NCBI GenBank assembly: GCA_017934275.1
Contig: JAGBJT010000020.1
Coordinates: 1 to 34,982, forward strand
Reading direction: 5' to 3'
Length of the DNA: 34,982 nucleotides
DNA from: Cardiobacteriaceae bacterium
GTDB taxonomy: Bacteria > Pseudomonadota > Gammaproteobacteria > Cardiobacteriales > Cardiobacteriaceae
In this document: piece by piece, positions 9,259-34,982 of the stretch
Layout: each line of letters begins with the position of its first letter
Position numbering within the stretch: position 1 is the stretch's first letter
The notes under the pieces: model-generated
What the model was told of the DNA's origin: nothing
The model's input: the letters and a program-made list of their open reading frames with translations, nothing else
Database searches by the model: none
Made by a program: the position numbers and the translations under genes

Positions 9259-10593
9259 ATGGCACAGCCTGCTTCAAATCCGTTCAAGGAACTAACTGCT
9301 CGTTTGTGGTTTTTGATTATTTCCCTAATCATTTACCGTATCGGTGTGCATATTCCCGTGCCAGGTGTTGATTTGGCGAAGATACGGGATATGTTCGAAG
9401 GTGGTTCTGGCTCGCTGTTTCAATTATTCAATATGTTTTCTGGCGGTGCATTGTCGAATGCTTCGTTGTTAGCATTGGGCGTTGCGCCGTATATCAGTGC
9501 ATCGATAATTATGCAGTTGGTTACGCATATGTATCCAGCTTTGAAAGAACTACGGCAGCAGGGCAGTTCTGGGCAGAAGAAGATAATGCAATATACGCGT
9601 TATTTGACTTTGTTTGTGTCTGTTGTGCAAGGTTTAGCAATATCGCGTGCGGTTATGAACGGCGGAATGAAATTAGACACGGTTGCGGCTTCGCAATTTG
9701 TTCTGATTACGACTATCGGTTTGACCACTGGTGCTATGTTTATGATGTGGCTCGGTGAGCAGATTACGGAACGCGGTATTGGTAACGGTATATCGATGTT
9801 GATTTTTGCGGGTATTTCCGTAAATATGCCGACAGGAATTGGGGCGATGGTTTCGCAAGCAAAAGATGGTTCTTTGTCTTATGGCAAATTTTTCCTGATT
9901 TTAGGCTTGATTGTCGGTCTGTTCGCACTGATAGTTTATGTTGAAAGAGCACAGCGCAAAATTGCAATTCATTATGCGAAGAGAACTCAAGGTGCTTCTT
10001 TGGCAGCGATGAATGATAAGCAGCATATTCCGTTAAAAATCAATATGGCTGGGGTCATTCCTGCGATTTTTGCTTCTGCGATTATTACCTTGCTGGTTTC
10101 AGGTTTTGGTTTGTTTGCTGGTAGCACAAGCACTGTCGGTCGTTTTTTGAGCGAGCTTGGCAGTAGTTTTGGTCCTGGTAGCTGGTTATATATCGCAAGC
10201 TTTACCTTGTTAATCGTGTTGTTTTCGTTCTTCTACACTTCAATGATGTATGAAAACCGCGAACTGGCTGATAACTTGAAGCGTTCCAATGCGTTTATTC
10301 AAGGTTTTCGTCCTGGTAAGCAAACGGCTGAATATTTGGATATGGTGCAAGAGCGTCTGACATTGCTTGGCGCGATATATGTAGCGTTTGTTTGTATTTT
10401 GCCATCTTTGATGAATATTGGTTCGACTGCTGGACAGATACTTTTCCTCTTCGGTGGAACATCGTTATTGATTGCGGTTGTGGTTGCAATGGATTTTATG
10501 TCGCAAGTGCAATCTCATATTCTCTCGAAGCAATATGAAAGCTTAATGCGGAAAGCTAATTTATCTGGATTTGGCGGGCAGTATCACCGTTAA
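9259..10593 (+). CDS. secY: Preprotein translocase subunit SecY
   Basis: SecY is the membrane channel of the Sec translocon, working with SecE, SecG and SecA. The 444 residues (443 in E. coli) give about ten hydrophobic segments. Landmarks are YRIGVHIPVPGVD in TM1, the plug region with NMFSGGALSNASLLALGVAP, YISASIIMQLV, and GIGNGISMLIFAGI in the middle. The cytosolic loops carry ERAQRKIAIHYAKR and GFRPGKQTAEYLD, which bind ribosome and SecA in E. coli. GAGGA at 9244-9248 is ten bases from the ATG. No infA follows. Confidence 0.98.
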   Translation: MAQPASNPFKELTARLWFLIISLIIYRIGVHIPVPGVDLAKIRDMFEGGSGSLFQLFNMFSGGALSNASLLALGVAPYISASIIMQLVTHMYPALKELRQQGSSGQKKIMQYTRYLTLFVSVVQGLAISRAVMNGGMKLDTVAASQFVLITTIGLTTGAMFMMWLGEQITERGIGNGISMLIFAGISVNMPTGIGAMVSQAKDGSLSYGKFFLILGLIVGLFALIVYVERAQRKIAIHYAKRTQGASLAAMNDKQHIPLKINMAGVIPAIFASAIITLLVSGFGLFAGSTSTVGRFLSELGSSFGPGSWLYIASFTLLIVLFSFFYTSMMYENRELADNLKRSNAFIQGFRPGKQTAEYLDMVQERLTLLGAIYVAFVCILPSLMNIGSTAGQILFLFGGTSLLIAVVVAMDFMSQVQSHILSKQYESLMRKANLSGFGGQYHR

Positions 10594-33669: not shown

Positions 33670-33708
33670 TTTTTTATATAAATTTGAATAAGTATTAAAG
33701 GAATATAG

Positions 33709-34497
33709 ATGAAAAAAATAATCTTCGATACCGAAACCACAGGTATGTTCCGAGGAGATAGAAATGATGTCGCGAAAGGTCATTACATTGTCGAACTCGG
33801 TGCGATAAAAATTCAAGATCGCCGTCCGACTGGTGAGGAATTGCATCTTTTCTTCAAACCGAAAATCAAAATGGACGAGGAAGTTATCCGTATTCACCAA
33901 ATTACCAATGAATTTTTAGCTGACAAACCGACTTTCGCCGAACAACTCAGCATAATTGAAGCGTTTTTTAACGACCCCGAAGTTGATGAAATCATCGCGC
34001 ACAATATTGCTTTCGACCAATGTTTTATGAATACGGAATTAAAGCGCGCTAAATCGAAATTAAAACTCATCGAGCCGCGTTTTGTTATTACCGATAGCCT
34101 AAAAATCGCCCGCGCTAATCTCAAAGACATCAAGAAACATAACCTCGATGCACTTTGTAAGTATTACAACATCGATACAAGTGAGCGGGAAACGGAAGGA
34201 CACGGTGCATTACTAGATAGCAAATTACTACTAAAAGTGTGGCTGAAATTAACGGGCGGACAACATAATCTCTTTGCTGAAAATCAAGTTGAAAATACAA
34301 GTGAAAAAAGACTTGAAGAACCTGAAAATAATGCTTCTTCCCAAGCTAAAAATAAAGATGAGGAGTTAGACCAAGCCGCTGAAAAAATTATGCTGTTGAT
34401 ACAAAAAAATAACAGTGGTTTTAGCTGGAAGAAAATAGAAAATAAAGCAGAAGATATTGAACTACATCAGAAAATATTGGAAAAAATAAGAGCTTGA
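33709..34497 (+). CDS. dnaQ: DNA polymerase III epsilon subunit (3'-5' proofreading exonuclease)
   Basis: Proofreading subunit of the replicative polymerase core. The DEDDh residues are all visible: D7 and E9 in FDTETTG, D103 in HNIAFDQCFMN, H165 and D170 in HGALLDSKLL. After the nuclease domain comes GGQHNLFAE, whose QHNLF (185-189) is a canonical beta-clamp-binding motif (QTSMAF in E. coli). A long charged tail (about 190-262) should bind the alpha subunit. At 262 residues it is longer than E. coli epsilon (243). AAAGGA lies before the ATG. A bidirectional terminator follows. Confidence 0.96.
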   Translation: MKKIIFDTETTGMFRGDRNDVAKGHYIVELGAIKIQDRRPTGEELHLFFKPKIKMDEEVIRIHQITNEFLADKPTFAEQLSIIEAFFNDPEVDEIIAHNIAFDQCFMNTELKRAKSKLKLIEPRFVITDSLKIARANLKDIKKHNLDALCKYYNIDTSERETEGHGALLDSKLLLKVWLKLTGGQHNLFAENQVENTSEKRLEEPENNASSQAKNKDEELDQAAEKIMLLIQKNNSGFSWKKIENKAEDIELHQKILEKIRA

Positions 34498-34524
34498 GGG
34501 AATGTTTATTTGTTTTAGTTTTAT

Positions 34525-34569
34525 AAAAACAAACGGCAAGAATTTTTTACCTCTTGCCGTTTTGTTTTT
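34525..34569. terminator. Bidirectional intrinsic terminator after dnaQ
   Basis: CGGCAAGA (34534-34541) pairs with TCTTGCCG (34552-34559); the stem extends outward through AAAAACAAA against TTTTGTTTTT with one bulge. The loop is ATTTTTTACC. T-runs on both strands allow termination from either side. Confidence 0.9.
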
Positions 34570-34858
34570 CTACCATTCAAACTTTTTTCTTTGATGACGG
34601 TTCGGATGATAATCTTCTTCCATAATTTATATGGAATATTTATCCGCTTCGACCAAGCATATTGTTCTTTTGATTGTATAAGCCTCCTCTGAAAGTAAAA
34701 CAATAAATATGCTTGGTTAAATTTGCCAGATTTAGCGATATAGTCGTTCCATTTCAAAATAATACTGCGGGAGCTTCATCGCCGTATTCTGTATACTGTC
34801 TTTAAGCTCGCTGCCTTGTCTTATTTTGAATTGAAACGACTATAAATCTGGCTTTTTT
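34570..34858 (+). ncRNA. Candidate small RNA region with anti-SD loop and repeat-interrupted terminator
   Basis: Between the dnaQ terminator and the next hairpin no protein gene is convincing. ACCAAGCATAT (34652-34662) pairs perfectly with ATATGCTTGGT (34707-34717), and the loop contains CCTCCTCT (34683-34690), complementary to a strong Shine-Dalgarno sequence. Then GCCAGATTTA (34725-34734) would pair with TAAATCTGGC (34843-34852) before six T if the intervening repeat copy were absent. Hairpin, C-rich loop and terminator on + are small-RNA features, but no promoter is clear, and on - the loop would instead read AGAGGAGG. Speculative. Confidence 0.35.
34739..34844 (+). repeat. 106-bp inverted-repeat element, copy 4, inside a terminator stem
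   Basis: Same orientation as copy 1: begins TATAGTCGTTCCATTTC, ends GAATTGAAACGACTATA; the core is the most diverged (GGGAGCTTCATCGCCG, CTTTAAGCTCGC) and one base shorter. Removing it with one TA joins GCCAGATTTA-GCGA to TAAATCTGGC and TTTTTT, a perfect 10-bp intrinsic terminator. This indicates insertion at TA with TA duplication and gives the element boundaries as TA-TAGTCG...CGACTA-TA. Confidence 0.92.
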
Positions 34859-34870
34859 ATATAAACGCCT

Positions 34871-34904
34871 AAAAAGACAAAACCGACAAGTTTCCTTGTC
34901 GGTT
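34871..34904 (-). terminator. Intrinsic terminator reading on -, near the window end
   Basis: AACCGACAAG (34881-34890) pairs perfectly with CTTGTCGGTT (34895-34904) around a four-base loop. On - it is followed by TTGTCTTTTT (34880-34871), on + by GTGTCG. It should therefore end a transcript coming from beyond the right edge on -. Confidence 0.85.
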
Positions 34905-34982
34905 GTGTCGCTGGGTTATGAAGTTGTTTATGGTCAGTGGATACCAGTCCTACCACGCGAGCTCCATTCTTAATAAAGAATG
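34905..34982. other. Unassigned right edge of the window
   Basis: No gene assigned. A frame open to the edge exists on - (reading NGARVVGLVSTDHKQLHN), but it would run through the terminator hairpin to a TAG in repeat copy 4, so it is doubtful. The last 18 bases form a small dyad, CATTCTT-aata-AAGAATG (34965-34982). I see no tRNA or rRNA match. Confidence 0.3.

Follow-up and report, generated by a model that had tools for sequence, protein, structure and literature searches.

The end of the window, by which we mean the whole stretch of 34,982 nucleotides analyzed here, raises the question whether a hairpin with a C-rich loop located downstream of an exonuclease gene gives rise to a regulatory RNA, and how this hairpin came to lie there. 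The window corresponds to contig C11 of G000, a MAG of 1.40 Mb in 63 contigs that is 73% complete, and was mainly compared with G001, the likewise incomplete MAG of a sister species; contigs C37, C45, C11, C16, C20 and C47 belong to G000, and the separately numbered contigs C6, C11, C32, C62 and C74 to G001. The hairpin described in an earlier note was confirmed, with a perfect 11-bp stem formed by ACCAAGCATAT (34652-34662) and ATATGCTTGGT (34707-34717), a 44-nt loop (34663-34706) and the anti-Shine-Dalgarno word CCTCCTCT in this loop (34683-34690), and so was the interrupted terminator behind it, which consists of the arms GCCAGATTTA and TAAATCTGGC followed by TTTTTT. The stem actually comprises 12 perfect base pairs (34652-34663/34706-34717, with 34663 pairing to 34706) and leaves a loop of 42 nucleotides, and 13 pairs are reached if the G-U pair at 34651/34718 is counted. 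Perfect 11-bp inverted repeats with a loop of at most 60 nucleotides were found at five start positions in the window, corresponding to four separate stems, as compared to a mean of 0.95 positions per window (range 0-4) in 20 shuffled sequences that kept the composition in blocks of 200 nucleotides. Two of the four stems fall within 34498-34982, namely this hairpin and a terminator-like one at 34531-34562; short matches to the region 34517-34573 recur in G000 and G001.

The comparison of the two genomes indicates that hairpin and terminator are the 3'UTR of a cysK gene, intact at the cysK locus on C37 and likewise placed behind cysK in the sister species. Window positions 34594-34740 agree with C37:139-285 at 144 of 147 bases and with positions 477-624 of contig C11 of G001 at 91% identity. 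The stretch on C37 comprises the end and the 3'UTR of the gene for a complete 315-aa protein ending in NDGSDDNLLP, which was identified as cysteine synthase A (CysK) by TIGR01139 (382 bits, cut-off 351), and the arrangement in G001 is the same, with the cysK tail followed by the hairpin and the terminator. As in a 3'UTR-derived small RNA, the hairpin at both loci belongs to the 3'UTR of a protein gene, and gene and hairpin have one terminator in common. Within the Cardiobacteriaceae, a cysK match at an E-value of 1e-60 was obtained in 9 of 12 genomes, including G000 and G001.

Judging by the same alignment, the window carries an additional, partial copy, in which the last codons of cysK and the 3'UTR are present without the cysK gene (Table 1). 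This copied tail lies directly downstream of the gene for a DnaQ-like exonuclease, which has one orthologue in G001, where different DNA follows. The copy in the window is probably a relic. Because its own gene has been lost and no promoter is recognizable, it is most likely a passenger in the duplication of the guide-RNA unit described below. A search of 57 genomes with the 147-bp block returned matches only at three places (C11 and C37 of G000 and C11 of G001), and the idea that the hairpin is another dispersed mobile element was rejected on these grounds. The view that the 485 bases behind the exonuclease gene contain no convincing gene holds for proteins but not altogether, because positions 34871-34982 on the minus strand resemble the end of an RNA gene.

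Table 1. Features of the window end and of related loci in G000 and G001. Positions without a contig or locus label refer to the window.
Feature	Position	Strand	Remarks
DnaQ-like exonuclease gene (RNase_T)	33709..34497	+	Pfam RNase_T, E-value 1.7e-26
Terminator-like hairpin	34531..34562	- (strand reported by scan)	Between exonuclease gene and cysK tail
17-codon frame MEEDYHPNRHQRKKFEW	34570..34623	-	Antisense of cysK tail and junction; no gene
Orphan last codons of cysK with stop	34593..34625	+	Only DDGSDDNLLP and stop kept; intact gene has N as the first of these codons; match to C37
cysK 3'UTR hairpin	34652..34717	+	12-bp perfect stem, CCTCCTCT in loop; 1 substitution and 1 indel between C37 and G001
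cysK terminator split by MITE	34725..34858	+	Arms 34725-34734 and 34843-34852, T-run 34853-34858; uninterrupted in C37
102-bp MITE	34741..34842	.	Ends TAGTCGTT.../...AACGACTA; TA duplicated at 34739-34740 and 34843-34844
Putative gene for a natural Cas9 single-guide RNA, 3' end	34871..34982	-	Hairpin, nexus-like core, terminator 34881-34904; 100% match to C20
cas9 of G000	C47:5826-9389		1187 aa; TIGR01865 708 bits; HNH_4, RuvC_III
Solitary guide tail, diverged	C47:9426-9522 (L106:9426-9522)	-	Right after cas9, convergent
Dispersed single-spacer units, ends or full copies	L109:496-706, L110:532-782, L121:209-440		Resemble natural single-guide RNA genes
Dispersed single-spacer unit, end or full copy	L119:23-265	-	Resembles a natural single-guide RNA gene
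Type II cas1-cas2 pair, side by side	G001 C74, L130:1011-2241	-	cas9 elsewhere, on C32
Second cas1 in G001	C6, L126:1104-2339	-	Highest scores from general and type I models; frame broken by a stop codon

The interruption of the copied terminator is due to a MITE. The corresponding site on C37 is empty (GCCAGATTTAGCGATAAATCTGGC), which together with the TA duplication shows that the element was inserted. At least 41 other near-full-length places with 86-97% identity were found in G000, a count that may be a lower bound, as 40 of 192 first-look candidates were scored. With its terminal inverted repeats, the TA duplication relative to the empty site and its multiple copies, the element qualifies as a TA-type MITE. 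The 102-bp element resembles TA-duplicating MITEs of the Tc1/mariner-IS630 type in its palindromic ends, its TA target duplication and its many further places. In an RNA fold of the filled terminator (z = -7.6) the MITE folds into a structure of its own and the outer stem ahead of the T-run is retained, so that termination may survive the insertion. The filled terminator was not listed by the consensus terminator scan.

The constraint on the hairpin was assessed between C37 and G001, that is, in two species only. Hairpin and terminator showed 2 substitutions in 103 aligned positions plus one indel, as compared to 51 differences at 155 fourfold sites of cysK (p = 4e-11) and 6 differences in the first 24 bases of the UTR (Fisher p = 5.5e-4). 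The latter block ends 5 bases before the hairpin; these 5 bases, 3 of which differ, were included in neither block. Among the 11 bases past the terminator, 4 differ and 2 gap columns occur. No substitution was observed in the 44 positions of the hairpin loop, which contains one indel. Three changes affect paired positions (34651, 34652 and one in the terminator), and all of them stay paired via G-U on the cysK strand, whereas on the opposite strand they would give A-C. These three pair-compatible changes are too few to be called covariation, the hairpin being carried by two species only. The sequence is thus constrained over its background in this pair of species, as is expected of a 3'UTR-derived small RNA.

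Folding of the window hairpin alone was only modestly better than that of shuffled sequences (z = -1.86; 12 of 200 as good), while hairpin and terminator together reached a z of -4.3 for the C37 copy (none of 200 shuffles as good) and of -2.9 for the sister species (2 of 200). Conservation is the stronger evidence for the hairpin. None of seven cysK genes taken from family members outside this genus had CCTCCTCT or both arms within 420 bases, and CCTCCT was present in one of them. A 20-nt pattern of the loop gave no match in viral contigs and matched a single stretch in the genome collection, which was taken as the sister MAG. According to these comparisons, the hairpin element is constrained and is confined to one genus among the genomes searched.

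The hairpin, the exposed anti-Shine-Dalgarno word and the terminator, being real and constrained, fit a regulatory RNA, and it is plausible that such an RNA is made from the cysK 3' end. The explanation that we consider probable on balance is that the cysK 3'UTR hairpin gives rise to this RNA, that the window copy is a passenger and that the end of a Cas9 guide unit adjoins it. At the cysK locus, a transcript would pass through cysK into the hairpin and end at the terminator, and its 3' end of about 95 nucleotides (hairpin, U-rich linker and terminator) would be released or retained as a regulatory RNA that pairs via CCUCCUCU with purine-rich ribosome-binding sites. The copy in the window, its gene gone, would have been carried along when a guide-RNA unit was duplicated, and the MITE would have entered the loop of the copied terminator.

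3'UTR-derived small RNAs form a general class in gammaproteobacteria. The present case resembles them in the stem-loop and Rho-independent terminator that end a protein gene and in an exposed loop able to pair with ribosome-binding sites, but differs in that the hairpin occurs in one genus only and is known here from sequence alone; no cysK case was found among those described in the accessible portions of the open-licence literature. C-rich-loop regulatory RNAs, likewise a recognized class, also carry CCUCCUCU in a hairpin loop, whereas the present element is found at one place per cysK locus and without an Rfam match at gathering, and its targets are putative. Of the C-rich-loop layout claimed initially, the conserved hairpin and the terminator hold up, while the independent gene has to be replaced by the 3'UTR of cysK. 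Rfam gave no match in the window at gathering and, at E-values up to 5, seven matches in 33700-34982, all far below gathering. The consensus promoter scan of 34480-34982 on both strands returned no site, as compared to 1.4 in shuffled sequences. The complement of 15 nt of the loop, with at most two mismatches, was found twice more in the genome, no more often than the reversed control (two), and no target set emerged. The search of 5' leaders proposed in the earlier note was no more successful, since only 1 of the 43 gene leaders in the window contained at least seven bases in agreement with the complement of the CCUCCU part.

It is conceivable, albeit unlikely, that the hairpin acts solely in cis, within the cysK mRNA, where it would shield the 3' end against exonucleases or aid termination. 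Its location between stop codon and terminator, the conservation of both stem and terminator and the lack of an excess of target sites would agree with such a role; a protective stem, however, needs no exact loop, yet the loop is free of substitutions apart from its one indel. It is improbable that the RNA is functionless and that the block owes its conservation to a reason at the DNA level or to a recent exchange between the species by recombination or gene conversion. Only two species carry it, and the adjacent repeat units have leaders and tails common to several loci, but the flanks differ within about 30 bases on both sides, which calls for a very short tract, and the changes at paired positions preserve the pairs on the cysK strand only.

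We regard it as quite improbable that the junction of exonuclease gene and cysK tail is an artefact of assembly or strain mixing. The window stops within a repeat where its contig ends, and this repeat is a breakpoint of C37, C45 and C11 alike; a misjoin at identical words is nevertheless contradicted by the three bases in 147 at which the window copy differs from C37 and by its MITE. The second cysK tail might come from another strain represented in this MAG. It is very improbable that the locus is an intergenic small RNA gene of its own on either strand or that a small protein is encoded on the minus strand. Stem, C-rich loop and terminator would suit such an RNA gene, but the intact locus is the 3'UTR of a gene and the consensus scan gave no promoter-like site in the window copy. 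The 17-codon minus-strand frame, which had been put forward together with the preceding AGAGGAGG, is present but antisense to the C-terminal cysK codons and the junction, and was therefore rejected both as a feature and as a small protein.

The preferred explanation, a cysK-derived regulatory RNA whose copy in the window is a passenger, leads to the unit that adjoins this copy. Positions 34871-34982 on the minus strand are the putative 3' end of a Cas9 guide-RNA gene. They show no difference from the tail of the complete C20 unit or from the start of C37, fold with a z of -4.2 and end in a terminator listed by the terminator scan; the spacer and the repeats of this unit lie beyond the contig end. 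The C20 unit is non-coding and about 490 bp long. The units consist of a leader of at least 230 bp, a palindromic repeat ending in GGCTATAAT, a unique spacer, a second repeat starting with GTTATAGCC (ATTATAGCC in one unit) and, after a linker, a tail with GTAATAAGAGC, the core GCTCGCGTGGTA...GGTATCCACTGACC (with an additional T in C16) and a terminator. The leader is conserved far beyond the extent of a promoter, and it is also found at contig ends without a readable spacer (L047, L048, L108, L111, L112, L114, L115).

Eleven spacers were readable, seven in G000 and four in G001, and all of them are different; 8 of the 11 have 30 bases and 3 have 31. The units are dispersed over both genomes, with cas9 located apart from all 11. 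With up to three mismatches, the 23-nt repeat core was detected at 19 places in G000 and G001, once or twice per unit, and the repeats are spaced by 66 or 67 bases in the seven units where both keep the core. Four units (C16 and C20a in G000, C11 and C62 in G001) are complete through the terminator and show the layout of a natural single-guide RNA, that is, spacer, repeat, anti-repeat, tracr-like tail and terminator, and the other seven are truncated at the ends of contigs. The repeat pairs with the anti-repeat segment before AATAAGAGC in all five scaffold folds despite differing linkers, and in four of five when the spacer is included, the pairing being lost in C20a. Two guide scaffolds folded with a z of -4.5. 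Among four units, one stem of the tail occurs in three different and perfectly complementary versions (GTTTATGG/CCATAAAC, GGTTATGG/CCATAACC and GTGTGG/CCACAC). The exact tail pattern was found in 2 of 32 genomes of the order, namely G000 and G001, and the guide scaffold had no match in plasmids. At gathering, Rfam gave nothing for three guide-unit loci or the cas loci, and a known Rfam RNA was rejected as the identity of the repeat at the window end; at E-values up to 5, one guide unit gave weak and implausible matches below gathering.

In G000, the unit next to cysK probably extends into the end of C37 or that of C45, and the spacers at both ends are unlike that in G001. If so, the spacers of the cysK-adjacent units differ between the species, and single spacer slots would be rewritten. 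For G000 we infer the contig order C45-unit-C37-unit-C11.

Both genomes carry a cas9 gene, and the presence of a Cas9 with HNH and RuvC domains assigns the system to type II. The two Cas9 proteins share 77% identity, and the closest solved chains to that of G000 were 8hnt and the 6jdv set, 6jdv being the meningococcal II-C Cas9. No multi-spacer array beside cas genes was found in G000 and G001, and the repeat core is absent from the cas9 contigs; an array could be hidden by diverged repeats or in unassembled parts of these two incomplete MAGs. No repeat or spacer was seen before the solitary guide tail behind cas9. Likewise, the G001 contig with the cas1-cas2 pair gave no match to the 23-nt core with up to three mismatches, and no cas1 was found in the 73% complete G000.

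The scattered one-target guide-RNA genes appear to serve the Cas9 of this bacterium. We consider it fairly probable that they represent a dispersed type II system in which separate single-guide RNA genes replace the array, cas9 stands alone, the spacer slots are rewritten and the cysK tail was dragged along. The window unit would be transcribed on the minus strand as one RNA made of spacer, repeat and tracr, the transcript would stop at 34881-34904, and this single-guide RNA would load Cas9 without a separate tracrRNA. The TATAAT in which the upstream repeat of the units ends is a possible promoter box. Two results count against the dispersed system, namely the fold of C20a with its spacer and the consensus promoter scan of C20a, which gave two sites versus 1.5 by chance, neither of them using the TATAAT at the repeat end. 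When 20-mers of 7 of the 11 spacers were compared with IMG/VR, one exact match was obtained, which extends to 26 of 30 bases overall and is possibly due to chance. Three whole spacers had no match to phages over 80% of the query, and neither had a 106-base stretch containing a fourth spacer.

In the accessible portions of the open-licence literature, no description of dispersed one-spacer fused guides was found. The parts of the reports available describe tracr-L of Streptococcus pyogenes as a natural single-guide RNA directing Cas9, which is transcribed from the tracrRNA locus and autoregulates through an 11-nt match to the cas promoter (Workman 2021, via PMC8616872 and PMC11417352). It shares with the present units the combination of guide and tracr parts in one Cas9-directing RNA, here predicted from the sequence, but there are 11 dispersed units with different spacers of 30 or 31 nt and a repeat on each side of the spacer. 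The scaRNA of the meningococcal type II-C system is, in the accessible part of its description, Cas9-bound and sgRNA-like, with a repeat:antirepeat-like part and stem-loops, and acts on efeO mRNA (PMC13431127). The likeness lies in the putative type II-C setting and the sgRNA-like RNA, Cas9 binding of the present units being predicted; the difference lies in the action on mRNA, and no family of units with changing spacers was found described in that part. Type II-C CRISPR-Cas of Pasteurella pneumotropica, as far as covered by the accessible text, has four 36-bp repeats and 30-bp spacers next to the cas genes (PMC7708072). Cas9, the repeat period of 66-67 bp, the palindromic repeat and the tracr-like tail are alike, whereas here no multi-spacer array was found, cas9 lies apart and the tracr part is fused to each guide. 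In viral mini-CRISPR arrays and solitary repeat units, according to the accessible text, a single spacer is likewise flanked by two repeats (PMC8616872), but the present units lie in bacterial contigs and each has its own tracr-like tail. IscB, a transposon-encoded nuclease related to Cas9 with the gene for its omega RNA adjacent, also uses a small guide RNA encoded as one gene, as stated in the available part of the report (PMC8730458), whereas a full Cas9 and many guides elsewhere in the genome are found here.

Taken by itself, the hairpin is one more candidate for a 3'UTR-derived small RNA, and its conserved loop gives a clear prediction in an uncultured genus. If the dispersed system is true, ready-made single-guide RNAs encoded as separate genes would be a natural counterpart of the laboratory sgRNA. 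It could then be tested directly by which route a solitary slot receives or swaps its spacer, whether the system can do without RNase III and a separate tracrRNA, and whether duplication and recombination disseminate the scattered guide genes, as suggested by the copied flank in the window.

The cas9 contig of G000 also carries restriction-modification genes. An in-frame stretch of its cas9 (L106:6190-6400) resembles dispersed genomic repeats of the TCATTTTGAGCGAAGCGAAAAATC type, and the Cas9 of G001 varies at this repeat-like stretch, too. In addition, AGGCTGCCTGAA-like words occur at L106:9398-9410 and at about 10146-10162, which we take to be reminiscent of the DNA uptake sequences of Neisseriaceae.
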